The translations under genes and the position numbers were made by a program. Positions 9,645-62,258 of a DNA stretch of 64,000 bases are shown here, piece by piece. Location: positions 62,001 through 126,000 of the IMG/VR virus record IMGVR_UViG_3300012363_000001. The stretch is one strand, 5' to 3'. Position 1 is the first letter of the stretch. Every line of letters begins with the position of its first letter. Under the pieces are notes generated by a model. It did no database searches and was not told the DNA's origin. It worked only from the letters and a program-made list of their open reading frames with translations. Source of the DNA: a virus.

Positions 9645-9717
9645 AGCTCGGAGAAGGATTCGAACCCTCGACAGCCGCATTACAGGTGCGGTGTTCTGAC
9701 CGCTGAACTACCCGAGC
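9645..9717 (-). tRNA. tRNA-Thr (TGT)
   Basis: 73 bases. Acceptor GCTCGGG/TCCGAGC, D stem GTTC/GAAC, anticodon stem CCGCA/TGCGG around loop CCTGTAA (anticodon TGT), T arm GAGGG-TTCGAAT-CCTTC with one G-T pair. CCA not encoded. Its 5' 38 bases also carry the last codons and stop of the upstream endonuclease gene. Confidence 0.93.
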
Positions 9718-10246
9718 AAATGAGGAAAGATTTGAGATAGTCGATGGCTTTTTGGAGGAGGTCTGTAGATTCTTTGAAGCCACCGAGAGAAGTATTGCAG
9801 GCATGACAAAGAAGACCTCTGGGCTTGCCGGTTTCATGGTCGTGGTCTACGTGAAAGTAACCATTGGTGGCTGCGCCTCCAGGTTCTTTTGTTCCGCAGA
9901 TGGCACAACCATTACCTTGCTTCGATAAAGTCTCATTGTACCAATCGAGGTCGATGCCATAGTGACTTTTTAGACGGTTGTTCTTTACGTTGTCGGGATG
10001 ATTTTTAATCCATTCTATATTCTTCTCAGGGTGCTCAGCATTGTATTGCTTTTGATACTCCAAAATATCCTCTCGATGCTTCTGGTAATACCTTCTATTG
10101 CTTTCAGCAACCCTCTCTGGATTCTCTAGTCGCCGCTTTGCAGCCCTCTCAGCAGCACGCTTCAAATCTTCTTCCGTTGGAGGATGTCGTTCCCTCCATC
10201 GCCTTTGTCTCTCTGCGTTTTTCTTTTTTCTTTCTTCATCTGCCAT
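9680..10246 (-). CDS. Endonuclease VII-like (zinc/HNH) endonuclease
   Basis: 188 residues. The first 100 residues are a very basic, helical DNA-binding region. Then come GCAICG, FHVDHDHETGKPRGLLC and CNTSLGGF, the zinc-bound endonuclease VII fold in which the DHDH element is catalytic. The ORF runs into the tRNA-Thr gene: the last residues (CSGSSAVRTPHL) are encoded by the tRNA 5' half. It is more AT-rich than its neighbours and sits between a terminator and tRNAs, as expected for a mobile (homing-type) insertion. A TGATATACT box lies ten bases before the ATG. Confidence 0.85.
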   Translation of the reverse strand: MADEERKKKNAERQRRWRERHPPTEEDLKRAAERAAKRRLENPERVAESNRRYYQKHREDILEYQKQYNAEHPEKNIEWIKNHPDNVKNNRLKSHYGIDLDWYNETLSKQGNGCAICGTKEPGGAATNGYFHVDHDHETGKPRGLLCHACNTSLGGFKESTDLLQKAIDYLKSFLICSGSSAVRTPHL

Positions 10247-10340: not shown

Positions 10341-11732
10341 TTAGAATGCGCCTCTGAGATTGTCTACCAGAACATTCTTTCTCGGATGCATAACGGCTAG
10401 CGTTACAAACCTGAAGTGCGCTTCAGGTATACTCAGGTCCGTAACTGCAAGCTTCAGCCTAGAATACGGGGCTAACTCCTTCAAAGCCATCGTATCGCCC
10501 TGAATCAAGAAGCCGGTGACGAAACCAGGATTCTTGTTGAACAGGTCGAGGAAGGTTGTCGTCGCAGCGCCGCTGTTGGACACACGGCCGATGAACCGCG
10601 AGGTCGCATCGTTGCCGCCGGCATTCGAACGGAACACGTTGAAGTACCGAACCACGCCGGAACCCGGAGGAGTGATGGTAACCGTCACGCTGTCGCCAGC
10701 GGCAATGGTCACAGTCACAGAGGTCGACTTGACAGACTCACCACGCTCGTTGACAGCTGAAGCGTAGTAGTTGTAAGTACCTGCCGGAGCACTGGTGCCT
10801 TGAGCAGCGTTGTCCGTCAGCGCGATGGAAGGCGCGCCAGGCGAAGAAGACCGTGCCGTTGCCGGACGGGTCTTGCCAGAGAGGAATCGAGAAGCCTCGA
10901 CGTTGACGGTTCCACCGGACACCCACTGACGCCGAAGGTCGGCGCTGGTGGCGTCCTGAGGAGCCCCGGCGAGGATGATTCGCTCTTTGCCGAACGAAAT
11001 CTTGTTGTAGGCGCTGAGAACCTTCGGGTCGACGACTAACTTGTCCGCCATACCGAAGTTCATCGAGGACCGGACACTGGCGTCTTCGATGTTGTCCTGC
11101 GTCAGGGTACCGCCACCTTGGATGACCACGGTGTCGTCAGACCCAAACTCGCCGAACATCAAGTCCGTTGCGTTCCGCTGACCGTCCGACATCCGGACCT
11201 GGGCATCCAGGCCGAGAATGTTCGGAAGACCGGGGATAGCAAGCATGGAGCCGTCGAAAAGACCCGCGTTCGAGAAGTCCGCCTTACCGCGGAAGCTGTC
11301 GAACTCGATATCGCCGGCAATTTTCTTCGCACCGTCGCTGGCTGCCCGCTCTTCGGCTTTGACGCCGTCGACCGTTGCCACGAGGTTTGCGACCACCGTC
11401 ACACGACGAACATGGCTATAATAGGCCATCGGGACCACGATACGAACGTATTCGCTCATTTCCTCTTGACCGACTGCGCCTTCGTTCTGGGCGGTAGCCC
11501 CGAAGATGCCGTAGCTGAGCTGACGGTCGAATTGGGCCAAGGTACTCTTGACCGGGTCGACTTTCAGCATCTTCTGCAGCTTAATGTGGCTGTCATCGTA
11601 GGTGACGTTGTTCATCACCGGCGAGAGGTCTTCAATCTGCAATGCGGAACCCTGGACCAAAGTCGAGGGAGCTGCATTGTAGTTGCCCGCCTCTAGGGCC
11701 TTCAGCAATGCTTGGGTGACTTCACTTGCCAT
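10341..11732 (-). CDS. Probable major capsid protein with inserted Ig/FN3-like domain
   Basis: 463 residues, preceded by a strong AGGAG site and followed by a strong terminator, as expected for the most abundant virion protein. It lies directly after the scaffold-like gene. The body (residues 1-290 and 405-463) has the composition of an HK97-fold capsid protein, but no named family was recognised. Residues about 295-400 look like an immunoglobulin/fibronectin III insertion (APAGTYNYYASAVNERGES, then YFNVFRSN, TTTFLD), likely exposed on the capsid surface. Residues 11-37 recur in the protease polyprotein (15206-19054) and residues 42-54 recur at the C-terminus of the 21694-22149 product. Confidence 0.8.
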   Translation of the reverse strand: MASEVTQALLKALEAGNYNAAPSTLVQGSALQIEDLSPVMNNVTYDDSHIKLQKMLKVDPVKSTLAQFDRQLSYGIFGATAQNEGAVGQEEMSEYVRIVVPMAYYSHVRRVTVVANLVATVDGVKAEERAASDGAKKIAGDIEFDSFRGKADFSNAGLFDGSMLAIPGLPNILGLDAQVRMSDGQRNATDLMFGEFGSDDTVVIQGGGTLTQDNIEDASVRSSMNFGMADKLVVDPKVLSAYNKISFGKERIILAGAPQDATSADLRRQWVSGGTVNVEASRFLSGKTRPATARSSSPGAPSIALTDNAAQGTSAPAGTYNYYASAVNERGESVKSTSVTVTIAAGDSVTVTITPPGSGVVRYFNVFRSNAGGNDATSRFIGRVSNSGAATTTFLDLFNKNPGFVTGFLIQGDTMALKELAPYSRLKLAVTDLSIPEAHFRFVTLAVMHPRKNVLVDNLRGAF

Positions 11733-11769
11733 GACGTTTCTCCTGTTTTAAGAAAAGTTTCCTTCAGTG

Positions 11770-13065
11770 TTACTCGAAAAATTTTGCCAACTGTTCCAGA
11801 CTTGCTCGCCGCTCGTACCAAGCCGTGATGAGTTCACGGTCGGACTTGGCCAACTTGGGGTCTTGGGTCAGTTGATTCAGCCGAGCCCGGACATCGCTCA
11901 GATTCTGTGGAGCTTTCTTTTCCTCAGCTGCAGGCGCGGGGGCCGCGTCGGCGCGGGGGATGAAAGAAATGCTGGTCACAGCCTTGCGGACCGGAGTCTC
12001 AAGGACGTGTTTCACGGCCTTGGTAAGAATTTCCACATCCTCTTGAAGAGTCTTGATAAGGGAGTCTTTCTCCGCTTCGGACTTCTTGAGGTTGTCTTGT
12101 TCTTGTTCGGACTTGCCCATGGCCTTGTTTCCTTTGGTTGCTGGGTCCGTGCTTTCCATGTGTTCCTTGCTCGGAGCCACATCAGCGAGTCTGCTCGGGC
12201 CTGCGGATTTGGCGTCCGTGGGCTTCACATCCAGAAGGCGGTTCTGTCCGCCATTGGCCTTACTCGGGGACACTGCGTCCAGTCGGTTCTCATTCTGAGC
12301 CAAGGGGCTGGGAGAAGGAGCCGGTGCCGGTGCTGCCGGGGAAGGGCTAGCCGGGGGTTGAGCCATAGCATCAGGAGCCGGTTGCTGCTGCGCACCGGCT
12401 TGCTGTTCTTTGGCCGCCATAGCAGCTTGAAGATGGATATCCAGTTCCTCGGGAGGAAGTTTCAGGTACTCAGACATCAGTTCCTCAGGGCTATATGACT
12501 GCATCGCACCTGGGTCCTGGGGTTGGTCACCGTTCTCGGGCGGAGCCTGGTCGGGTTGAGCCTCAGCACTCAATTCGCTGTGAAGGTCTTCAGGGGACTT
12601 ATCACCGCCGCTGGCACTACCTTCGCTGGCAGCGCTCGGAGACCCATCAGAAGGCGACTTGTCGCCAAAATCCGGTGAATCCTTGCTCAGTGAACCACTG
12701 GTCGTAGAAGATTCGCTCGCAGACCTCTCAGCCTTTTGAGCCGTAGAAGAATGAGAGCCTTCTCTAACCTTCGACCATTCCGGGCCGCCGTGAGCAGAAT
12801 CTTCAGCCTTTCGGGCAGACCTACTGGCAGAAGTACTGGATTCACTTGCAGACGGAGAGGCCTTGTGAACTTCAGGCAGAACTTCTTTGTCGTGATGTTC
12901 GGGGCTGTCGTGATAGCCATCGTGTTCCTTGGCTTTACGACCTTCCTCTACGAACTCACGCTCTTCAGCTTTGGCAAAGTTCCCTTTAGACGAATCGAAG
13001 GCCTTCGCTAGGTCGGCTTCGACGTCTTCGAGAATTGCCATAAGCTCTGAGTTTTTGATTTTCAT
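11770..13065 (-). CDS. Scaffold-like / prohead core protein
   Basis: 431 residues of mostly low-complexity Ser/Glu/Ala/Pro sequence with Lys, no cysteine, a Pro/Ala/Gln-rich middle (about residues 225-265) and a predicted coiled coil at about 335-375 (KSEQEQDNLKKSEAEKDSL). It is immediately upstream of the capsid gene, the usual place for a scaffold. The fold and protease sites are not visible by eye. A virion internal protein is the alternative. Confidence 0.6.
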   Translation of the reverse strand: MKIKNSELMAILEDVEADLAKAFDSSKGNFAKAEEREFVEEGRKAKEHDGYHDSPEHHDKEVLPEVHKASPSASESSTSASRSARKAEDSAHGGPEWSKVREGSHSSTAQKAERSASESSTTSGSLSKDSPDFGDKSPSDGSPSAASEGSASGGDKSPEDLHSELSAEAQPDQAPPENGDQPQDPGAMQSYSPEELMSEYLKLPPEELDIHLQAAMAAKEQQAGAQQQPAPDAMAQPPASPSPAAPAPAPSPSPLAQNENRLDAVSPSKANGGQNRLLDVKPTDAKSAGPSRLADVAPSKEHMESTDPATKGNKAMGKSEQEQDNLKKSEAEKDSLIKTLQEDVEILTKAVKHVLETPVRKAVTSISFIPRADAAPAPAAEEKKAPQNLSDVRARLNQLTQDPKLAKSDRELITAWYERRASLEQLAKFFE

Positions 13066-13097
13066 TGACGTTTCCCGTCTTGAAAAAATCTTTTGGA

Positions 13098-13553
13098 TTA
13101 CAAGCTCGCCAATTGCCGGTACTGGAGCGAAGCGCCGTCGTACACTGCAACGGGGTTGCCCGTGATACCTGCTGCCGAAGGACCCGTGAGATTTGCGGTC
13201 ATGAACAATTCAACTCGGGTCCCGAATTTCGCGATTTCATCGCTAAGCGGAATCAGGGTCGCAGATTGCAGAAGCGCAACGTTGGCGATGGTGCTGGTTT
13301 CCAGGACCATCTGAATCAGCGTCGGGCTGTAAGACTGTTGCTGCAGACCAAGGACATCTGCTCCAATGTTCGGGAACGCGCTGACCTTGATGAGCGCCGA
13401 CTGGCTGCCGGCCGTACCGGGACCGTACTTAATGAGACGGTTTCCGTCCGTGTCCAAGCCACCGTCAGTAGCGGTCGCCTTACCAAAACGCTTTTGAAGC
13501 GCGTCAAGTAGTTCGCCTGCGATGCTGTTTGCTTTCGAGGAAGTGAGCCCCAT
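13098..13553 (-). CDS. Small structural protein candidate (151 aa)
   Basis: Strong GAAGGAG site before ATG 13553. The protein has an N-terminal helix and then a long beta-rich, Gly/Ala/Ser/Thr-rich sequence without cysteine, typical of virion proteins. It lies between the GGDEF gene and the scaffold in the head module. It could be a head-tail connector or decoration protein. Confidence 0.55.
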   Translation of the reverse strand: MGLTSSKANSIAGELLDALQKRFGKATATDGGLDTDGNRLIKYGPGTAGSQSALIKVSAFPNIGADVLGLQQQSYSPTLIQMVLETSTIANVALLQSATLIPLSDEIAKFGTRVELFMTANLTGPSAAGITGNPVAVYDGASLQYRQLASL

Positions 13554-13578
13554 GGTCTTTCTCCTTCAGAGAAGTTGG

Positions 13579-13607
13579 TTGAAAAGTCTTGTGCAAAGGA
13601 TTAGATT
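13579..13607 (+). promoter_or_regulatory. Rightward -35/-10 promoter of the first inserted cassette
   Basis: TTGAAA (13579-13584), a 17-base spacer and TAGATT (13602-13607). It reads against the surrounding late operon and towards the rightward gene that follows, suggesting independent expression. Confidence 0.5.
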
Positions 13608-13655
13608 GCCTCTCAGCTGGAACAAAAATTGTGTGAAGCGACAATCTTTTGTTTC

Positions 13656-13970
13656 GTGAACTACGTCTGCTCAAAGTGTGGCCTCCCCAAGCCCAAGAAT
13701 CAGTTCCACGAGAGTCCCCACCGGGACAGGAAGAGAGAGGTTACGTCCTGGTGCCGGAAGTGCCGAAGCCAAGAATATTATCGGCGCCAGTACCCGGATA
13801 CGGTCTGTGAAGTCTGCGGGAACAACCGGCCCCTGGACGTGAACAGAGCCTGCCGGCGGTGCAACGCCAGGCGAAACCTGCGGCAATGCCAAACCTGCTT
13901 GGAAGTCCTGTCAGTGGACTTGCAGTTCTACGGCCGGAAGAAAATCTGTAAGGATTGCGCTAAGAAATAG
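13656..13970 (+). CDS. Zinc-finger protein on the opposite strand (inserted cassette)
   Basis: 104 residues from GTG 13656 (reading NYVCSKCGLPKPKNQF after the start); a TTG at 13629 would add nine residues. Five Cys pairs (CSKCG, CRKC, CEVCG, CRRC, CQTC) plus CKDC are spaced as repeated zinc knuckles. The CSKCGLPKPKNQFH element resembles the N-terminal module of phage HNH/endonuclease VII proteins, but no DH or HNH catalytic core is present. It may therefore be a degenerate homing endonuclease or a DNA-binding regulator. It is the only gene of its strand for several kilobases. Confidence 0.6.
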   Translation: MNYVCSKCGLPKPKNQFHESPHRDRKREVTSWCRKCRSQEYYRRQYPDTVCEVCGNNRPLDVNRACRRCNARRNLRQCQTCLEVLSVDLQFYGRKKICKDCAKK

Positions 13971-14032
13971 CGTGTTGGCGAACCCAGGTCCTTTAGCCGA
14001 TGGCAGTTCGAATACACATACCTTTGGCATAG

Positions 14033-14062
14033 TGCGGAAGTTCCAAACACCCGCAAGTTTTG
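14033..14062 (+). terminator. Weak hairpin-plus-T-tract downstream of the cassette gene
   Basis: TGCGG (14033-14037) and CCGCA (14051-14055) form a 5-bp stem followed by AGTTTTGTTT. It would end rightward transcription before it enters the GGDEF gene antisense. The stem is short. Nothing else was found in the roughly 100 bases between the genes. Confidence 0.3.
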
Positions 14063-14069
14063 TTTATCC

Positions 14070-15206
14070 TCACAAGGCTCCCTCAGAACCCGGAACTAAA
14101 CTATGGACGTGATGCTGAGCCTTGCCCGGCTGATAATTGGCCTGGTGGCTGGCTTCCTTGGCCTGTTGCAGTGCTGCTTCGGCATGCTCCGGAACCATTC
14201 CGAATCCCATTGACACGCTGAGGCCATGAGTACCGCCGACAGGCGGCAGGGCTTCGAGCTTGGACCTCAGGACTCTAGAGAAATGAGCCGCTTCCTGGTG
14301 AGTTGGCACATGGACCACGAATTCATCACCGCCGGTACGAAAGGACTTTGCTTTGGCGCGTCCGATCGCTTCATCGAGAGCTGAACGAATTGCCATCCCG
14401 ATACCCCTGATGGCCTGATTACCGACTTCGTGACCGTGGGTGTCGTTGATGGACTTAAATTGGTTCCCGTCGATGTGGACGTGGATGCCCCGCCGCGGGC
14501 GACTGAGAAAATCTCGGTACGCTTTCAGATTCCCCATGACCGGAACCAAGGTGTCCTTGAATAGATGCCGGGCAATTTCCTCAGCGACGTAAGATTCGAT
14601 GCGGCCATCCTTCTGGGCCTTGCGGAGTTCTTGCATGGCCCTGCCGAGGCCAGACTCGCCAACGCCGTCAAGACTCATTAGCAATGCCTCCATCTTCTGC
14701 ATGGCCTGGTCTTCGTGGTCCTGGGGATAACGGATTGTGGCAACGCCCTGCGCTGCGTTCTGGAGAAGTCTCTGGACTTCCTCGGGGATAAGCTCGTGGC
14801 CATCAAGGAGGACGGTGCCATCTTCATTGACGGTGACGGTCTGAGGCGCTTCCATGCCCTGTCGATGGTACTCGAAAACATTCTCTCCCTTTGGCTGTTC
14901 GACATCTTCGAGTTTACCATGAACCATTGTCAAGTACGGCTGTAGGTCAGGATGTTCGCCCTGCTTCAGCTCTTCGAGACTGATGAGCTGCAGGTATGGT
15001 GAATGCTCCATAGACCAGATTTTCCGCGTCGCCACGGCCGGAGGTTGCCGCTCCAAGTCCCTGAGAAAACCTACATGGTCTTCCAGGACGTCCAGTCTGC
15101 CATCATGTAGGCTGAATTTCCCGACAAGGCTTCGCTCTATCGTGTCACTTCCATCTTTGGGATGCACGGCAAAGACCAGCCAGATGTTCTCATGTTGAAT
15201 GTCCAT
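14070..15206 (-). CDS. GGDEF-domain nucleotidyl cyclase in the head gene cluster
   Basis: 378 residues. Residues 1-200 are an unrecognised N-terminal region; residues about 215-360 are a complete GGDEF domain. It opens DTLVPVMGNLKAYRDF. An ungapped stretch then aligns Asp246, Asn254, Lys251 and Asn263 with PleD Asp327, Asn335, Lys332 and Asp344, and GGDEF falls at 292-296. The guanine-contacting Asp344 is therefore Asn here, and the RxxD inhibitory site is incomplete (RAKA). Diguanylate cyclases make c-di-GMP from two GTP; change at this base-contact position is known to relax specificity. The start overlaps the upstream stop as TAATG, so it is translated with the capsid protease polyprotein. 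Confidence 0.85.
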   Translation of the reverse strand: MDIQHENIWLVFAVHPKDGSDTIERSLVGKFSLHDGRLDVLEDHVGFLRDLERQPPAVATRKIWSMEHSPYLQLISLEELKQGEHPDLQPYLTMVHGKLEDVEQPKGENVFEYHRQGMEAPQTVTVNEDGTVLLDGHELIPEEVQRLLQNAAQGVATIRYPQDHEDQAMQKMEALLMSLDGVGESGLGRAMQELRKAQKDGRIESYVAEEIARHLFKDTLVPVMGNLKAYRDFLSRPRRGIHVHIDGNQFKSINDTHGHEVGNQAIRGIGMAIRSALDEAIGRAKAKSFRTGGDEFVVHVPTHQEAAHFSRVLRSKLEALPPVGGTHGLSVSMGFGMVPEHAEAALQQAKEASHQANYQPGKAQHHVHSLVPGSEGAL

Positions 15207-18200
15207 TAGTAATCCTCGGGACCACGGTAAGCGTGTGAATTCCAGAGTTTCATCCTCGGAAGTCCGTGCTTGAATTTCTCGTCATCGTTTATTTCCTTTG
15301 CCTTCCGGAGTCTTTCCATCGTCTGTTCGATGATATGCTGCGGGGCCTGATGCCTGACCATCTCATGACGGAGAGCATCCTCGTCAATGTCTCTGATGAA
15401 TTGACGGGCGCTATCGTGCACCGGAGCGCCGGTCCAATTCCGGGCAAGTTCGGTAAGCTCGTGAGGCTTCATGCTTTTGAAGTCTCTGCCCAGAAATGAA
15501 TACCGCTCGATATAGTCGGGAATGTTGCCCGGGTCCTCAAAAGCATATCCATGGTCAAGGACCTTCATTCCTTTGGGCGTTACCATCCAGTTGTGGTCAT
15601 GTCGGTCTGGCACTCCCAGGATAAGGTCTTGAGCCATCAACTTGTCGAGTTCACCGCTATCACCCAATTGCTGAAGCATTGCCCGGTGTTGAGGAGAATC
15701 ATGGTAATGCTCGCCGCCTTTGATTTTCTCGATGACTGCAAGTTCGTCGCCGGAATCTGGATGGTGTACCACCGAGACCGTGGGCAGGTAATTGCCGAGC
15801 TTGAAAACGTTGTGGGCTAGGTTATGAAACAATCCCTCGCGCCGTGCTTCGTTGAAAGCTTCGTGAGGCTCAGTCAGGGCCTTGCCACCCCCCGCAGGCG
15901 TATAGGCGCTCCGGTGTATGATAGAACTCCCTTTTACAAACGCCCAAGACCCAGTTGGAGCTTTCCGCCAATGAGACATTTCGCTTTGAGCCGTAGGGGC
16001 TTCCGGTCGTCTGCCTTCCTTGTTGAAATCAAGGCCGTGGACAAGCTTATGTTGTTCCGGGCGCTGATTGTACTCACCGACACTATGACGCTGAGAATCA
16101 ACAATATTTCGCAGCCGGTTCTGCTCATTCTTTTGAGCAAATTCCTGAGCGTAAGCTTTCGCCCGTTCCGGAGTACCCAATACCGCCTTAGCCGGCGACT
16201 TAAGACCCTGTCGGTCAAAAATATTCGGGTCGCCGAAAGCCTTCCGGAGTTCAATGGTCATGGCCTCGAACTTCATCACCGGATTCGGTTTCTTATTTAA
16301 CCGGCGCTTGGCAGCCTCTAACAGCTGCGGTGCCAGGTATCGATAGTAGAGCATCATTGCCGGAACTTCGCCATATTCCTTGACCCAAGAATGCATGGTT
16401 ATGGCAGTCTTCTCGGGCAAAGACGTATCCAGGGATTCGCCTTCGTTCTTGGTCAGATGCGGAGCAATTGCTTCCCAGAAAGGTCGATGGTCGGTGGCCT
16501 CATTATGAGCCAGAGTCGACAGGCCGCGGAATTTTTCGTGAGGAGCGATGGCAACCCAATTCTTCCAAAACGCTGGGAAGATAGCGTCTTCGTCTGATTC
16601 AAATTCCGAGCCCCAACGCGGATGCTCGCGCATGTGCTTGACGGCGTCATGGTGCTTGGCGTAATAGCGGTCGATGGCGTTCAGGACTTCACTGTTGTTC
16701 GGATTCCAGAGCAGGTCCTTGACGTAAGAAATCGTCGGATTGTCTTTGCCCTTCTCCAACCCGAACAGATACCGGCTCATGTGCGTATCCGGGACTATGA
16801 CGTTTCCACCACCCATCATCCCGTACGTATACCTGGCCGTCTTGGGAGCAAGACCAGGAACCACTGGGCCTTGGTATTCGCCAGGGTCTGGAAGACCTTT
16901 ATCGATGTCCCGATTTCGCTTCGAATTCCAGAGCATGGCGCGGTGTTTGTGGTCCATCAGCTCCTGGACGGCGGAGCGGGCATCATGGCGATGGCGATTT
17001 ACCAATTCCACAAGACCTTGGTGGAGAGTATGGTACTTCTCCATGTTCTTGAACTTATTGTTCGCCAACATGAAGCTGCTGATATCCCCGGCCTTGCGGT
17101 TAGTGAGCTTCGAGTCTCTCTTATTCCGGAGTTCTTCTTGGAGCCGTTCGAAATGGCTGCGGCCATGCTCTGGGAACACTGACGGATTGTCTCGACCTAG
17201 CCAATCCTGACGGATGTTCGAAAATTCGGAATGTCGAGGGTCCAGGCCCGTGTGCTTCATCGAATCCACAAGATGACCGTACATCAATTCCTGCACCGGC
17301 ACCGGAGTATTAGGGCTGAGCTGGGAGAAGAGAACTCCGTGCATAATGACTTCCTCGGGGAGTTTCCCTTCTTTCAGAAGCTTATGAACCTGGGCCCAGT
17401 TCTCAGTAGCATAATCGTGAAACTTGCTGAGTTTGGGGTCATTGAGGATATTGTGGAAAGCTTCACCAGCGCCCTTGTTCTCTTTATCCCGAGAGGGGAT
17501 ATACATCGGGAAGCTGCCCTTTGGGGTATGCAGAATTCCGGCTTTCTCGTCGAAATGAGGTTGCTTGATTTGAGGATTCGGCTGCACGGGTTTGCCGCGG
17601 ATGGTGGCTTGCTCAGTCTCGGCCTTGCCACTTTCTACCCATTTCTTAAATGACGGGGCTTGACTGCCACGGCTACCAGGCTTTCGAGGTTCACCTTCCT
17701 TCTTGTAAAGTTTCCATTCCCCAGAATTATGATGCTGAGAAGCAAGTTCTTTGGCATTCTCAAGAGTGGAGGCTTTAGCAGATGACCTTAGAGAGTCGTG
17801 CCCTTTTTTGTAATACTGGACGTCAAAACCTCCCGATTGGTGTGGCAATACGTGGTATTCTCCATGACGGGCTCCGGCAGAATGTACTTTTGTTTCCCCA
17901 GCCCATGATTGCTTTCCGGCAGTCCAGTTCAATGATTCTTTTTCGGCTTTCTGAAGAGTTTCCCCAGGAGCCTCACCATACTTACTTCCGACCCGGGCGT
18001 CAGTCAGCTTCCGGACAAAGTCGATGTCGTCTTGGTGCTTTTCTTCCCACTGAGGCCAATGGTCTTCGCAGAACCAGACCCTGGCCATGCCTTCAGCCCA
18101 CCGGGCCTCGTATCTGGGCGGCTTTGAGCATTCCATGCACTTGGAAAAAGATTCCTGAGCCTTCCTGAGCTTCATCGTGTAATTATCGACGAGGTTCGAG

Positions 18201-19054
18201 AATCGGTCGATGAAATCGTCACTGGCCTCTGGGAGCTTGTGCTTCAGGACCTCACGAAACGGCGTCTTCCGGTCCCAGTCCCTAAGTGCTGCCCGGGCCT
18301 GATTGCGGAGATGAGCCAGGTGCAGACTTCGGTCTTCGACTTGAAGGGCAGCGCCGCCGGTCATAGCCGAAGGAGCCACGTTATAGTTCCCGGCTTCAAG
18401 AGCCTTCCGGACGGATTCAACTTTGGCCAATGCCCGCTGGAGGACATCACCATCCAGAACCGGATTGAACTGTAACTCAGAGCCGCCGAGTCGAGTGTAA
18501 TTAGGGTGCTCGTTAAGCTTCAGGCTGTCATCTGGTTTCTGTTTGAAGCCCTTCGGGGCGTTGGGGTCTTCCACGACGCCGACAACGCAGGATTTGTTAC
18601 AGGGCTTGACCGTCAGAGCCGCCTTCCGACACACGGTCCTGAGCAGTCTCTTGTCTTTGGATTCGAGCGTTGAACCCTCGATGGAAAAGCCGACGATGAT
18701 GGGCTCGTCATTGGCCAGGTAGTCGCGAATCTGAGCGGCCAGAGCTACTGCATTCGGATGACCGGAACCGTCAAAGAGGCGCCCGATGCCGTAAATCAAC
18801 GGCAACCTGACCTTATGATAGAACTCAAGCTCCCGGTCGTTGTCGCAGTCTTTCTCGGAAAATATTTTCTTGGCGTAGATTATTTTCCCAACAATGTCCT
18901 GACTGCCCTGGTCTCCGTTGTGTTCCCAGTTGAGAATACCTTTGCCCTCAACAAGGTCGGAAATGTCTGCGCCTTTGATGTCGAGGATTTCACCGGAGCT
19001 GTCAATGGCCTCGGACGCGAGGACGCCGTCAAGTACCATTCCTGTAGACGCCAT
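15206..19054 (-). CDS. Prohead protease polyprotein with HhH-GPD-like and kinase-like regions
   Basis: 1282 residues after an AGGAG site. (1) Residues 1-165: capsid maturation protease, with His45 in NWEH and Ser124 in GFSIEG. (2) Residues 217-243: copy of the major capsid N-terminal segment (KALEAGNYN, then ALQVED). (3) About 305-335: Cys/His cluster CMEC...CEDHW. (4) About 525-860: helical region with HhH-GPD features, VPGLAPKTARY then VIVPDTH; Lys738 and Asp756 are 18 apart, as are Lys120 and Asp138 of endonuclease III. No iron-sulphur cysteines. (5) About 1030-1235: atypical kinase core, GVPDRHDHNW (Asp1150, Asn1155) then VLDHG (Asp1167), as in HipA/PI3-kinase-like enzymes. Probably self-processed, with downstream parts as capsid cargo; this is inference. 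Confidence 0.75.
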   Translation of the reverse strand: MASTGMVLDGVLASEAIDSSGEILDIKGADISDLVEGKGILNWEHNGDQGSQDIVGKIIYAKKIFSEKDCDNDRELEFYHKVRLPLIYGIGRLFDGSGHPNAVALAAQIRDYLANDEPIIVGFSIEGSTLESKDKRLLRTVCRKAALTVKPCNKSCVVGVVEDPNAPKGFKQKPDDSLKLNEHPNYTRLGGSELQFNPVLDGDVLQRALAKVESVRKALEAGNYNVAPSAMTGGAALQVEDRSLHLAHLRNQARAALRDWDRKTPFREVLKHKLPEASDDFIDRFSNLVDNYTMKLRKAQESFSKCMECSKPPRYEARWAEGMARVWFCEDHWPQWEEKHQDDIDFVRKLTDARVGSKYGEAPGETLQKAEKESLNWTAGKQSWAGETKVHSAGARHGEYHVLPHQSGGFDVQYYKKGHDSLRSSAKASTLENAKELASQHHNSGEWKLYKKEGEPRKPGSRGSQAPSFKKWVESGKAETEQATIRGKPVQPNPQIKQPHFDEKAGILHTPKGSFPMYIPSRDKENKGAGEAFHNILNDPKLSKFHDYATENWAQVHKLLKEGKLPEEVIMHGVLFSQLSPNTPVPVQELMYGHLVDSMKHTGLDPRHSEFSNIRQDWLGRDNPSVFPEHGRSHFERLQEELRNKRDSKLTNRKAGDISSFMLANNKFKNMEKYHTLHQGLVELVNRHRHDARSAVQELMDHKHRAMLWNSKRNRDIDKGLPDPGEYQGPVVPGLAPKTARYTYGMMGGGNVIVPDTHMSRYLFGLEKGKDNPTISYVKDLLWNPNNSEVLNAIDRYYAKHHDAVKHMREHPRWGSEFESDEDAIFPAFWKNWVAIAPHEKFRGLSTLAHNEATDHRPFWEAIAPHLTKNEGESLDTSLPEKTAITMHSWVKEYGEVPAMMLYYRYLAPQLLEAAKRRLNKKPNPVMKFEAMTIELRKAFGDPNIFDRQGLKSPAKAVLGTPERAKAYAQEFAQKNEQNRLRNIVDSQRHSVGEYNQRPEQHKLVHGLDFNKEGRRPEAPTAQSEMSHWRKAPTGSWAFVKGSSIIHRSAYTPAGGGKALTEPHEAFNEARREGLFHNLAHNVFKLGNYLPTVSVVHHPDSGDELAVIEKIKGGEHYHDSPQHRAMLQQLGDSGELDKLMAQDLILGVPDRHDHNWMVTPKGMKVLDHGYAFEDPGNIPDYIERYSFLGRDFKSMKPHELTELARNWTGAPVHDSARQFIRDIDEDALRHEMVRHQAPQHIIEQTMERLRKAKEINDDEKFKHGLPRMKLWNSHAYRGPEDY

Positions 19055-19103
19055 ACTGGATAGCTCCTGGGTTCCTTAAGGAAAGATTGCTGCCAGATAG
19101 ACA

Positions 19104-19138
19104 AAGAGCCCGACTGACGGAAAGCAAGTCGGGCTCTT
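19104..19138 (-). terminator. Hairpin between virion gene and protease polyprotein
   Basis: A perfect 12-bp stem AAGAGCCCGACT (19104-19115) with its complement at 19127-19138 and an 11-base loop. Read leftward it is followed by TTTGTCT, a short T-rich tract. It likely ends or attenuates transcription after the 19166-20995 gene and so sets protease below virion-protein level. Confidence 0.65.
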
Positions 19139-19165
19139 AGGTCCTAGTCTAGCGAAGCAGGATTA

Positions 19166-20995
19166 TTAGATGGAGTCGTATCCGCCGATGGTCACAGACT
19201 CAAGGGTAGTCAAGCCACCAGCTGCCGCAAACTGAAGGGTCATGCTCGTTGCCGCAGAACCGACGATATTCAAACCAGTGATGTCGATGGCTCGAACATC
19301 GCCCACTGGAGCTGTCAAGTATTGACTCCACACAATCGCAGCACCGTCCAAGAGGTTCACCAAGATTGCGGCGCCAGCCGTCGCGCCAGCGGCGAAGCTT
19401 GCTGAAATCGAGTTGCAAACGTGCCGGACACCGGCAGCACCAGCAGCCTTAATCGCAGACGCCTGAGTATTAGCCGCAGGGGTACTGACAACAGTCCAGT
19501 TACCTGGAGTCGTAGTCAGTTCAGAACCGGTAGCGCTTTGAGCCGCAAGAGTAGCAGCAGAACCGCTACGGCCACGGTCAAACGTTGCACCGTTCCAAAG
19601 AGCCGGGTTCTCCATGACAACGTTCTGGCCGCTGACCGCATCCTGGGTCGCAGAACGCTCCAGGTAGAAGAGGTTGGACACGGGGTCCCAGAGTGCCTCT
19701 TCTGCGATGGCGATACCAGTTGCCAGGAATCCGGCGATGCCCGGGCCTTTATTGACATAAATATCCCAAGCTGCAGCGACGCCGTTAGCGTGGGTGGCGA
19801 CAGTCGGAGAAGCAAGAGGAACTGCCGTCGCAGTCAGTGGCAGAGTTGCCGTAGTAGCAACGTAGACAACTTCTTCGTTTGCCAGGCCCTGTTCGATGAT
19901 AATCGGAGAACCAGGCATCAAGCCAACAACCGCAGCCAGGTTCAAGGACGTAGAACCAACGGCCAGAGTACCGGCCTGGGCCAGAGTAGAGGTTCCTCGA
20001 CCTTTGCCCTGAAGATTGCGGGCTCGGTCATACCCTAACTGACTGGGTGTAACAGCGCCAGTCAACAGAGGACCGCCACTATTGAACAAGTATTCTGTGG
20101 CAACCGCTGTACCGACGCCGGTTGCACCATCTTGTTCACCGGCGGCGCTTCGTTCGCTTTCCCATCCACCGGCACCGGTATTCAAGGTACCATTGAAAAG
20201 GAATGTTGCGCCGGCCGCAAAGCCTTGACCGGTAGAACCATCCGGGGCCGTGGCATCACGAGCTTGATTATACGCAGCTGTGGTCACAGCACCGTTATTC
20301 AAGTGACTGTTCAAGAAGATACCGGTCACTCGGGCAGGGCCGGTTGCGACCGCGGTAACAACCACGGCCTCAGCTGCAGCCAGGCCCGGCTCCACTAAGA
20401 GCACAGTCCCGGGTTGGATATTCCAGGCAGCGCCACGGTTCGTACCGCTGATAGCTGAGACGTTGACAGTCTGAGAAGCCACGTTGCCGGTTACCACCTG
20501 AGCCAAAGTGATGGAAATCGGCGAAGCCAGTTGCTGAGACCCAGAGGCGATGCCAGCCGCCGGGGCATTATCAGTCCCGGTTTCACGCTGACGGTCAACA
20601 CGACCACCGGCGTTCAGGAGCTGAGCCACGCCACCGGTGTTCAAACCGAAAGACGAAGCGCCGAGGGCCTGATTGTCAGCGTTGTGGAATTGGAAGACGT
20701 TGGCAATGTTGCCGGTAGCGTCCGTCAACTTTGTCGGCCAGCCGTTAGCCGCCACCGCGTTCGGAGCGCCTTGCTGCACGAGCTGAGCCAAAGTTGTACT
20801 AGGAATGAGTCGGACCGCGAGACCCATTTCGGTTCCCGTCAATGCGGCTGTCGAGGAAGCAATAGCACTACCGCTTCCGGAATCGACAAGGGCAATACCT
20901 TGAGCTTCAACAGGGGTGCCGCCGACAGTGTTAAGAAAGGTCTGGACCGCTTTACCGGTACTATCGGGTGCGACCTTGACGAAATCGTTTGCCAT
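19166..20995 (-). CDS. Virion fibre/decoration protein candidate (609 aa)
   Basis: Strong GAGGAG site. The protein is Ala/Gly/Thr/Val-rich and nearly free of Cys and Lys over long stretches, with repeated beta segments: two copies of a GT.L.VE.GLA..E.V.V motif (about residues 205 and 365), each typical of small beta-sandwich repeats. The C-terminal 90 residues (VRHVCNSISASFAAGA to the end) resemble a beta domain common at the C-termini of phage head-decoration and fibre proteins. Role inferred from composition and position. Confidence 0.6.
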   Translation of the reverse strand: MANDFVKVAPDSTGKAVQTFLNTVGGTPVEAQGIALVDSGSGSAIASSTAALTGTEMGLAVRLIPSTTLAQLVQQGAPNAVAANGWPTKLTDATGNIANVFQFHNADNQALGASSFGLNTGGVAQLLNAGGRVDRQRETGTDNAPAAGIASGSQQLASPISITLAQVVTGNVASQTVNVSAISGTNRGAAWNIQPGTVLLVEPGLAAAEAVVVTAVATGPARVTGIFLNSHLNNGAVTTAAYNQARDATAPDGSTGQGFAAGATFLFNGTLNTGAGGWESERSAAGEQDGATGVGTAVATEYLFNSGGPLLTGAVTPSQLGYDRARNLQGKGRGTSTLAQAGTLAVGSTSLNLAAVVGLMPGSPIIIEQGLANEEVVYVATTATLPLTATAVPLASPTVATHANGVAAAWDIYVNKGPGIAGFLATGIAIAEEALWDPVSNLFYLERSATQDAVSGQNVVMENPALWNGATFDRGRSGSAATLAAQSATGSELTTTPGNWTVVSTPAANTQASAIKAAGAAGVRHVCNSISASFAAGATAGAAILVNLLDGAAIVWSQYLTAPVGDVRAIDITGLNIVGSAATSMTLQFAAAGGLTTLESVTIGGYDSI

Positions 20996-21030
20996 TTGTT
21001 TCTCTCCTCTAAGGAATTAAGATTGTGTCT

Positions 21031-21555
21031 TTAGTAGCTCGGGTACCAGGAGGTACCGTCGAAAGTGACCGTTAGGGCTCGACTGACTACCGCGGTCGAA
21101 GCCAAGGCAATGTTCCCGCCGGTGGCCAGAGTCCAAAGGCCATCTGGAATCAAGCGAATGGAACCGGTAAAACCGGCATAGGGCGGGGTGATGGTGTTGA
21201 TAGCAGCTGTCCCGGTGACGTGATGAACGCCGGCAAAGGGAGCAATGGTCGCAGCCGATGCAATCGCAGAACCGGCTTGCACTCCCCAACCGTGTGAATG
21301 GTCAGAGCGCGAGCTGGAGAAGGCAGTACCAGCGGCTGGAGCCCCGAGAATGGAAGGAAGGTTGTTCGAGGGCGGGACCGCGTTGTCCAAAAGGGCAGAA
21401 ATGCTGTCGGAGATAGCGTCTCTGCGGAATTGCGCCAAAGGCAGCAGGTTGGTGAAAAACTGGTCAAGGGCCTGCTTCTCTGATAGAGTAAGCATGCCGG
21501 ATTGAGCCGGTGGTCCCGGGTCAAATTTGCTGTTGAGCAGTGTGAGTAGCGACAT
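21031..21555 (-). CDS. Head fibre-like virion protein (174 aa)
   Basis: Helical N-terminal half (residues 1-60) then a beta-rich C-terminal domain with VHHVTGTAAINTI, FTGSIRLIPDGLW and VTFDGTSWYPSY. This domain is widespread in phage fibres and decoration proteins. AAGGGG precedes the ATG, and a GATAAT box lies about 30 bases upstream. Confidence 0.65.
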   Translation of the reverse strand: MSLLTLLNSKFDPGPPAQSGMLTLSEKQALDQFFTNLLPLAQFRRDAISDSISALLDNAVPPSNNLPSILGAPAAGTAFSSSRSDHSHGWGVQAGSAIASAATIAPFAGVHHVTGTAAINTITPPYAGFTGSIRLIPDGLWTLATGGNIALASTAVVSRALTVTFDGTSWYPSY

Positions 21556-21622
21556 GCGCCGGTCCCCTTCTTCCCGCAGAGGTAAGATTATCGCTATAAT
21601 GAAACAAAAAGTTGGACAGAGC

Positions 21623-21651
21623 TTGACTTTTCCAGGAGTCGGGTGTAGAAG
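21623..21651 (+). promoter_or_regulatory. Rightward -35/-10 promoter of the second inserted cassette
   Basis: TTGACT (21623-21628), 17-base spacer, TAGAAG (21646-21651). A TATAAT (21595-21600) and, on the other strand, GATAAT (21587-21592) lie upstream, so the 138-base gap looks like a divergent promoter region. Confidence 0.5.
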
Positions 21652-21693
21652 ACTTATTGATGATTTTTATTTTTCGACTTAAAGGAGTCGTAC

Positions 21694-22149
21694 ATGGGCA
21701 CCAGCTACTCTAGCGCCGCAGCGGAAACCCTCCGGAAATGGACCGCGGCTTGTCTGATTTCCACCAAGAGCCAAAATACCTACACGGTCAAAGGTAAGGC
21801 CTATTTCTGGGAATCCAGTAACCGTGAGCACGACGACGGAGCCATAACCGGCAGCGTCTACCGGGTGACTGAGACCCGAAGCGATGGCCGGGAAATGGTT
21901 CGACCAGCCGGAGCCTTTCGAATCAATGGCGATGGCGCCGTGGCGCTGGCGCCGAAATTCCTCCGCGATGCAGCCGAAAGCCGAGTCGTGGTCAACGGCG
22001 ACTTCCTTGACGGGACTATTTCTGTAGAGGAAGGGGTTTCTACCTGGTCGAGGAAGCTTCCGGATATCAACGTCGATGGGGCCGGCGAGAACGTTCTCGA
22101 CGTCACCTACGACGAAAGTCACGTCAAAATGCAGAAAGCTACCATCTAA
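21694..22149 (+). CDS. Hypothetical protein ending in a capsid-like segment
   Basis: 151 residues with a strong AAAGGAG site. The first 120 residues look like a compact beta-rich domain with no recognised family. The last 15 (VTYDESHVKMQKATI) match residues 43-54 of the major capsid protein (VTYDDSHIKLQK), also at DNA level over about 40 bases. It lies on the strand opposite to the late genes with its own promoter. It may be a virion accessory protein using a capsid-derived tail for interaction, or a recombination relic. Confidence 0.6.
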   Translation: MGTSYSSAAAETLRKWTAACLISTKSQNTYTVKGKAYFWESSNREHDDGAITGSVYRVTETRSDGREMVRPAGAFRINGDGAVALAPKFLRDAAESRVVVNGDFLDGTISVEEGVSTWSRKLPDINVDGAGENVLDVTYDESHVKMQKATI

Positions 22150-22196
22150 ACCGCTGGCTCGCGGCAATGGTCCAATTTTTTCTGAAAGAATTTGCC

Positions 22197-22346
22197 ATGG
22201 CAAATGTGAAAAGCGTAGTTGTCGAAAACGGCACGGTGGTTATTTACACGACGTCGGGAGTTGTTACCGTGGACCCCCAGAAACGAAACGGGTATCTAGT
22301 GGCATACAACTCTAACAAGGGAACTCAGACTAAGATAATCAGCTAG
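22197..22346 (+). CDS. Small beta-rich protein (49 aa)
   Basis: ATG at 22197 reads MANVKSVVVENGTVVIYT; beta strands alternate with charged turns and there is no cysteine. GAAAGAA lies upstream. Its TAG stop at 22344-22346 overlaps the TAG of the convergent MuF gene in the palindrome AGCTAGCT. Part of the second rightward cassette. Function unknown. Confidence 0.55.
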   Translation: MANVKSVVVENGTVVIYTTSGVVTVDPQKRNGYLVAYNSNKGTQTKIIS

Positions 22347-23098
22347 CTGTTCTGTTTGGCGTACTCATCATGGCCTGGGCCTTTGTATTCGACCATGCCA
22401 TCCTTGTTGAACCCGTAGCCAGGCATAAGAGTCGTAAGCACGCAGCGACAAAGTGGATGCAATCCCCCGACCTTCGGGTCATCTTCCCCTGGCTTGTGGT
22501 ACCCGTGGCCGACTTCGGAAAGTTTATAGACTCGGGGAGTACCGCCAGCATTTAAGTGAAGACGCCGACACTCAGGGCAGAGAGAAATGTCCCGGACCAC
22601 GACAAAAAATACGTTTGGGTCTTCGACTCCCGCGGCAGCATTTACCCGCACGATACCATCCATGATGCTCAGGTTTCGAGCCTGGGTGGTCTCAGTCTGA
22701 ATGATTCGGCTGACATCGTTCGTGACTTCGCCCCAGAGCTTTGATAGCTGGCCCCCGAGCACCGTCTCAACGTTCGCCGGTACACCCTGATGCGCGGCCC
22801 CGGTAATGAACGACTGGACCCCGTGGACTATCTTGGCCTTGGCCCGGAGCTTGCTCGCATCCAGGTAGTTGCCGGCAATTTTCAGGACTGTATTCAGGAC
22901 ATCTTCGCTTGGCTTCACGCCTTCTTCGGCCGCAGCCGCTTCGAAGACCCCAGGCAAGGTAAGTTCATGAAGGAAGCCAACAGCCAAGGTTTTGCCTCCG
23001 GCATAACGACCCAGAAGCCGGGTCTTGGCCCGGTTGAAGATTTCATCGACAGCATCTTCTATGATTTTGACCGCACCGGGAGAAAGCCTAGCCTTCAT
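22343..23098 (-). CDS. MuF-like minor head protein
   Basis: 251 residues. The C-terminal half has the phage Mu gpF head-morphogenesis signature: VRDISLCPECRRLH (Cys174, Cys177) and GLHPLCRCVLTTL (His214, Cys217, Cys219), a zinc-like knot. The N-terminal half is helical and probably contacts the portal. It lies directly after the portal gene, with GAGGA overlapping the portal stop. These proteins enter the procapsid in few copies and can be ejected with DNA. Confidence 0.88.
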   Translation of the reverse strand: MKARLSPGAVKIIEDAVDEIFNRAKTRLLGRYAGGKTLAVGFLHELTLPGVFEAAAAEEGVKPSEDVLNTVLKIAGNYLDASKLRAKAKIVHGVQSFITGAAHQGVPANVETVLGGQLSKLWGEVTNDVSRIIQTETTQARNLSIMDGIVRVNAAAGVEDPNVFFVVVRDISLCPECRRLHLNAGGTPRVYKLSEVGHGYHKPGEDDPKVGGLHPLCRCVLTTLMPGYGFNKDGMVEYKGPGHDEYAKQNS

Positions 23099-61832: not shown

Positions 61833-62258
61833 GTGAACAAACTCTGGCTAGATGACGTTCGCATAGCACCAGCTGGCTGGATTTGGGCTCATAGTGTTGA
61901 TGAGGCCAAGAAACTTATGTCCTCGGGTGTGAGGTTCGATGAAATGAGCCTCGACCACGACATGGGCCTCGGGCCACCTTGTTCTGAGTGTGCGAACCGT
62001 GGTTGCTATCAGGACTGCAAATGCCATTGTCACGACAATCTTCCGACCGGTTATGACTTCGTGAAGTGGATGGGCGAGAACAATCTCTGGCCACCCAAGC
62101 GTCCCAACGTTCACAGTATGAACCCTGCCGGCAAACAGAACATGGATGAATATATCAACCGATACGGCCCGTATGGTGGAGTTTCGACGAACCCGACGCC
62201 CAAGACCCAGGCCGATATCGCAGACCGCCAGGAATTGATTGACGAGGGAAAGTCGTGA
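61833..62258 (+). CDS. Cyclic-phosphate-processing receiver (cpREC) domain protein
   Basis: 141 residues. LWLDDVRIAPAGWIWA at the start, then MSLDHDMG and GYDFVKWM, and HSMNPAG, are the signature of the cyclic-phosphate-processing receiver-like family, predicted to act on cyclic phosphate ends of RNA. Between the second and third motifs is a zinc-like insert (CSEC...CYQDCKCHCHD, about residues 49-68). GTG start. With the HAD_SAK-like gene at 9064 it adds an RNA end-processing theme. Confidence 0.75.
   Translation: MNKLWLDDVRIAPAGWIWAHSVDEAKKLMSSGVRFDEMSLDHDMGLGPPCSECANRGCYQDCKCHCHDNLPTGYDFVKWMGENNLWPPKRPNVHSMNPAGKQNMDEYINRYGPYGGVSTNPTPKTQADIADRQELIDEGKS

Follow-up and report, generated by a model that had tools for sequence, protein, structure and literature searches.

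A segment shared by the capsid and protease genes

Within a 64,000-nucleotide stretch of viral DNA (positions 62,001 to 126,000 of IMG/VR virus record IMGVR_UViG_3300012363_000001; hereafter the window), we analyzed a peptide segment that is present both near the N-terminus of the major capsid protein (MCP) and behind the protease domain of the prohead protease. The MCP gene (10341..11732, minus strand) encodes a SPO1-type protein of 463 amino acids, which was matched over its full length by the major head protein profile phrog_752 (residues 4-460, E=9e-49) and shares 60% identity with its counterpart in Myxococcus phage Mx1. The gene at 15206..19054 (minus strand) encodes a prohead protease polyprotein of 1282 amino acids, with the protease at residues ~1-165, followed by a linker, the segment (217-243), a mini-domain and about 950 more residues. 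The presumed catalytic residues of the protease, His H45 (18920..18922, minus strand) and Ser S124 (18683..18685, minus strand), are both invariant in 28 proteases. The polyprotein and the Mx1 protein annotated as "putative prohead protease" share 43% identity; the head maturation protease profile phrog_1028 gave a weak match (E=0.0013), and searches of the protease against Pfam and NCBIfam added little.

The first-pass annotation of this DNA had reported that capsid residues 11-37 recur at polyprotein residues 217-243 (18326..18406, minus strand), and that capsid residues 42-54 recur at the end of the product of 21694-22149. The first half of this finding is proven. The two regions align without gaps at a BLOSUM62 score of 100, while the highest score among 500 shuffles was 64 (0/500 reached 100). 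When capsid residues 1-70 were searched with phmmer against all frames, the protease segment was recovered at E=8e-7, and with capsid residues 1-64 as query over the full 164,871-base record it was found at E=2e-8. The second half is borderline, the tail of the other product being within reach of its nulls, as described below.

The position of the maturation cut is known for the MCPs of A511 and 812. The A511 record annotates a mat_peptide from residue 24 (cut K23|S24), and the first residue of the 812 MCP chain in PDB 9row is S25, directly after K24. In the alignment with these known sites, the invariant Lys of the MCPs is K11 in the capsid protein analyzed here, and by homology with A511 and 812 the cut is predicted at K11|A12 (11697..11702, minus strand). 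Since the known A511/812 cut falls at the shared Lys, the shared block lies on the retained side: it comprises the Lys at which the MCP is cut and the N-arm that the mature shell protein keeps, and not the removed propeptide. With the cut site placed from A511 and 812, the shared module comprises capsid residues 11-45 (11598..11702, minus strand). The equivalent residue of the polyprotein, K217, is likewise invariant in the protease alignment, and a self-cleavage site is predicted at K217|A218. In the SPO1 protease, gp3.2, the corresponding site is K169|S170.

A boundary profile was built from 13 ungapped MCP/protease pairs. Identity per position was 0-0.3 at most upstream positions and 0.54 at -4, rose to 1.0 at the Lys, was mostly 0.5-1.0 over +1 to +24, and was lost by +35. 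The similarity thus starts abruptly at the cleavage Lys, which is present in both proteins of every pair (13/13), and the shared block extends 25-34 residues from the cut K|(S/A) into the mature N-arm.

Generality and co-variation of the paired copies

Eight relatives and SPO1 have the segment in both places, at the N-terminus of the capsid protein and following the protease domain; in a ninth relative only the protease was in reach. In most of the annotated phages tested, covering several Herelleviridae genera and Pseudomonas, Bordetella, Aeromonas and Thermus phages, the MCP N-terminus matched the protease of the same phage better than all shuffles (phage MA9V-3, in which the gene taken as protease encodes a NUDIX-like protein, was left out of the statistics). 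A profile built from 11 MCP N-termini was then searched against 25 whole genomes. It found both MCP and protease in 24 of them, including SPO1, A511 and 812, and matched exactly these two places in 23; in the genome of the present phage it matched the MCP, the protease and a 161-residue open reading frame (ORF). The first-pass annotation had suggested a tag for cargo proteins; its presence on cargo proteins in general is not borne out by this distribution. As an independent check, the SPO1 protease used as a PDB query returned the SPO1 MCP (9vel, E=2.4e-6), and the 812 protease returned the 812 MCP (5lii, E=1e-6). The pairing of MCP and protease by the shared segment is real and general. No convincing similarity to the segment was found in the scaffold (11770-13065) or in the equivalent gene of other phages, nor were further carriers found in the accessory cassettes of the relatives. 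Among open-access papers we found none on a shared module of this kind, so its novelty is provisional.

Given that both copies occur in so many phages, we compared them within and between phages. Over 34 residues, MCP and protease of the same phage scored 97.2, against 48.3 for cross pairs, and none of 100,000 permutations was as high; with one phage per genus the values were 96.3 and 50.8, and again no permutation was as high. The MCP-MCP and protease-protease similarity matrices correlate at r=0.92. At the DNA level, the same codon is used at 99 of 219 identical residues, and codon usage predicts 100.0. Recent gene conversion between the two genes was ruled out by this codon test, since after recent copying the codons would agree, and drift after an old duplication was rejected because own pairs would then be no closer than cross pairs. 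The closeness of own pairs together with chance codon identity means that selection at the protein level, rather than copying, holds the two peptides matched in each phage, and such a selected match suggests that one common partner reads the module in both MCP and protease. Co-evolution without shared codons makes this a clean case of selection matching peptides of two genes.

The same data bear on plain common descent, in which the capsid N-terminus was duplicated into the protease gene long ago and serves no function in the protease today. MCP and protease are clearly related over the block, as the PDB searches indicate. However, an old, unconstrained duplication would lose the match and a recent one would share codons, so that own pairs far closer than cross pairs with codon identity at chance contradict this explanation, unless the codon result is a small-sample artefact; we regard it as very improbable.

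A proposed cleavage and docking module

Prohead proteases are packaged as zymogens in T4 and HK97. In the model that we propose, and consider fairly likely as a whole, the segment, of which the protease carries its own copy behind the catalytic domain, is the signal for maturation cleavage of the head and consists of a P1 Lys and some 25-34 residues of the N-arm of the mature capsid protein. The protease would enter the procapsid as a zymogen fused to its C-terminal domains, in the order protease domain, linker, cleavage Lys, capsid-like arm, helical mini-domain and, in the present clade, ~950 further residues. Once active, it would cut the MCP after K11 and itself at the equivalent K217. Judging from the copied cleavage site, the self-cut at K217|A218 would free a ~24-kDa protease from a ~118-kDa C-terminal part, whose N-terminus would then be that of a mature capsid subunit. 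The segment is probably a recognition or docking module of the protease, and the same cognate surface, which may be the protease itself or the scaffold/capsid lattice, would read it in both proteins; in this proposal the copies stay matched within each phage because one surface reads both. That the block begins precisely at the Lys speaks for recognition by the protease, as an extended substrate; the length of the module and the Asp found at the Lys position of the 161-residue ORF favour docking.

These last two features also bear on an alternative that we rate as quite possible, though somewhat short of probable, namely that the protease, and after the self-cut its C-terminal part, sits in the lattice or scaffold by imitating the capsid N-arm, with cleavage specificity being secondary. 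The module has the length of an N-arm, not that of a protease subsite, and in Prohead 1 of phage D3 the first ~24 N-arm residues past the cut are unresolved (PMC12749128). The extra copy in the 161-residue ORF keeps GSALQIEDL.P.M..VT with Asp in place of the cleavage Lys, and packaging of the SPN3US protease needs its C-terminus (PMC7411985). However, the cleavage Lys marks the precise start of the similarity and is kept in both proteins, neither of which docking alone needs, and the scaffold gene holds no related segment.

Several observations weigh against the cleavage and docking model that we prefer. A prime-side site of 25-34 residues is far longer than the protease norm, so docking may dominate. 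Insertions lie between the Lys-Ser and the core in Lbab1, SAC12B, Iacchus, 3-521 and Mecenats; in Thermus phage Lalka27b the profile matched the MCP and missed the protease, and the proteases of LE1 and DAC19 gave no convincing match. Structure predictions of protease residues 1-315 and of the MCP were of too low a confidence for interpretation (predicted local distance difference test, pLDDT, 45 for the protease and 40.5). Finally, self-cleavage of SPO1-type proteases is not reported in the open-access literature searched. Because P1 is Lys, the cut would be indistinguishable from a tryptic one in trypsin-based virion proteomics, and this masking may explain why a self-cut has gone unreported.

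Among known proteases, gp245 of SPN3US removes its own C-terminal propeptide at its substrate motif, and its C-terminal part is required for prohead entry and packaging (PMC7411985, PMC10052503). The protease analyzed here resembles gp245 and T4 gp21 in its predicted self-cut with head-substrate specificity. The signal of gp245, however, is the short P-side motif AXE, unlike the P1 Lys and about 25-34 prime-side residues proposed here, and T4 gp21 has no such similarity to gp23. A much longer signal, shared with the mature shell protein, is the difference from the known self-processing, self-packaging proteases of SPN3US and T4. With HK97 gp4/gp5 the present pair has in common a P1 Lys, a P1' Ser and a His/Ser protease with a C-terminal helical stretch. 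In gp4, unlike the present protease, the cleavage region of gp5 is not significantly repeated (score 47 against a shuffle maximum of 51), and the best local match lies off the gp5 cut (K103|S104). Beyond the present group, searches for the segment in HK97 gp4/gp5, T4 gp21/gp23 and T4 Inh/gp23 gave nothing significant.

It had also been suggested from the sequence that the segment may be a capsid-targeting or protease- or scaffold-docking tag comparable in idea to the capsid-targeting sequences (CTSs) of T4. A docking or recognition role is well supported by the pairing, the boundary and the co-variation, but the comparison with T4 fails on anatomy. Like the CTSs of IPI-III and Alt, the segment is short and connects the protein that bears it with head assembly and the prohead protease. 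A CTS, however, is an N-terminal propeptide that is removed, and the present block sits inside the protease (217-243 of 1282), close to the C-terminal end of the product of 21694-22149, and on the retained side of the MCP cut. Removal by the protease does not fit a similarity that begins at the P1 Lys and continues downstream into the mature protein, and several cargo proteins do not fit carriers that are limited to MCP and protease in nearly all genomes, with one further, uncertain ORF here. A T4-type CTS was rejected on these grounds.

The recruitment of prohead proteases to the procapsid and the choice of their cut sites are known for few phages, and here a precise signal is proposed, which would apply to Herelleviridae (SPO1, A511 and 812/K-type therapy phages) as well as to several further groups of myophages and from which a self-cut is expected in each of their proteases. 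A broader proposal, speculative and rather unlikely to hold in full, is that large SPO1-type myophages use one long, co-evolving peptide code, made up of the cleavage Lys and the mature capsid N-arm, both for shell maturation and for building the protease into the shell, that the C-terminal part of the protease, in the present clade a multidomain enzyme of ~118 kDa, is left in the head with a capsid-like N-terminus, and that accessory proteins exploit the code as decoys or inhibitors.

Two further candidate copies and neighbouring genes

The second recurrence in the first-pass annotation lies in a 151-residue orphan product (21694..22149, plus strand) whose codon usage is coding-like and whose start is preceded by AAAGGAG. 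Its residues 136-148, DVTYDESHVKMQK (22099..22137, plus strand), are a borderline match to capsid residues 42-54, NVTYDDSHIKLQK. The sequences and coordinates were as described, and the reported DNA similarity over about 40 bases is also present (30/39 nucleotides identical), but the match is not clearly above chance. The protein score was 57, compared with 53 for the best unrelated ORF of the window and 56 for the reversed-capsid null, and the DNA score was 39, with reversed DNA giving 36. Since the similarity in DNA is mostly a consequence of the residues in common, it does not count as a separate line of evidence. The E value was 0.04-0.11 across the phmmer search with capsid residues 1-70 over all frames and the whole-record search with residues 1-64, the latter giving 0.04.

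We consider it rather unlikely that this product really makes further use of the capsid N-arm, as a binder or cargo. Nine of the 13 residues are identical and the others conservative, the match abuts the block common to capsid and protease, the gene is preceded by a ribosome-binding site and its codon usage is coding-like, and a second accessory ORF of the genome holds an overlapping, significant piece. Set against this, the score hardly exceeds those of the nulls, the MCP-family profile did not report the tail at E<=1, and no relatives of the product were found in any search made. The product belongs to two plus-strand ORFs (151 and ~49 residues; window 21694-22347) inside the minus-strand block of head genes. 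In the corresponding position, Mx1 carries four genes on the opposite strand, which indicates a variable accessory slot between the minor head protein and the protease.

The additional copy lies outside the window at G000:C1:10718-10837 (plus strand), with E=3e-6 when capsid residues 1-64 were searched over the whole record. The 161-residue ORF that covers this copy of capsid residues 7-45, LQPLLDALKTSGYLLKSSAECEGSALQIEDLCPIMECVTF (G000:C1, ~10.5-11.0 kb), scored 88 against the capsid protein (E=3.3e-6) and had no relatives except via the capsid-like segment. Its codon usage value (0.12) is lower than in the majority of coding windows, which means that the ORF may not be a real gene. If it is one, its product could be a pseudo-substrate inhibitor, or decoy, of the prohead protease, since the prime-side sequence is kept with the cleavage Lys replaced by Asp, and the protease inhibitor Inh encoded by T4 (by annotation) offers a precedent. 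We regard this as unlikely, given the weak codon usage and the lack of relatives; moreover, a Lys-Thr three residues on could still be cut, and T4 Inh has no similarity to gp23.

Some features around the main genes are added here. Behind the segment, the polyprotein has a helical mini-domain, LRDWDRKTPFREVLKHKLPEASDDFIDRFSNLVDNY (18179..18286, minus strand; pLDDT about 70-80 locally), which by eye resembles the C-terminal helices of HK97 gp4. The C-terminus of gp4 is a helical-looking stretch, DVENWLRDSVGLTKSQAVGLIARF, preceded by MKS, and is perhaps a version of the group's mini-domain without the capsid arm. The ~950 residues that follow the protease include, near the C-terminus, a PI3/4-kinase or HipA-like region, which falls just under the Pfam cut-off here and exceeds it in relative L011. 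By eye, a stretch resembling helix-hairpin-helix glycosylases, VPGLAPKTARYTYGMMGGGNVIVPDTHMSRYLFGL, was seen within residues ~500-1282. The gene after the polyprotein (14070-15206) encodes a product with a GGDEF (diguanylate cyclase-type) domain; in relative L007 (3784-7401) a GGDEF domain is instead attached to the protease polyprotein at its end, as a fusion, and Mx1 has a separate "nucleotide cyclase" gene at the equivalent position. Next to the capsid gene, an Endonuclease VII-type gene (9680-10246) shows atypical codon usage.

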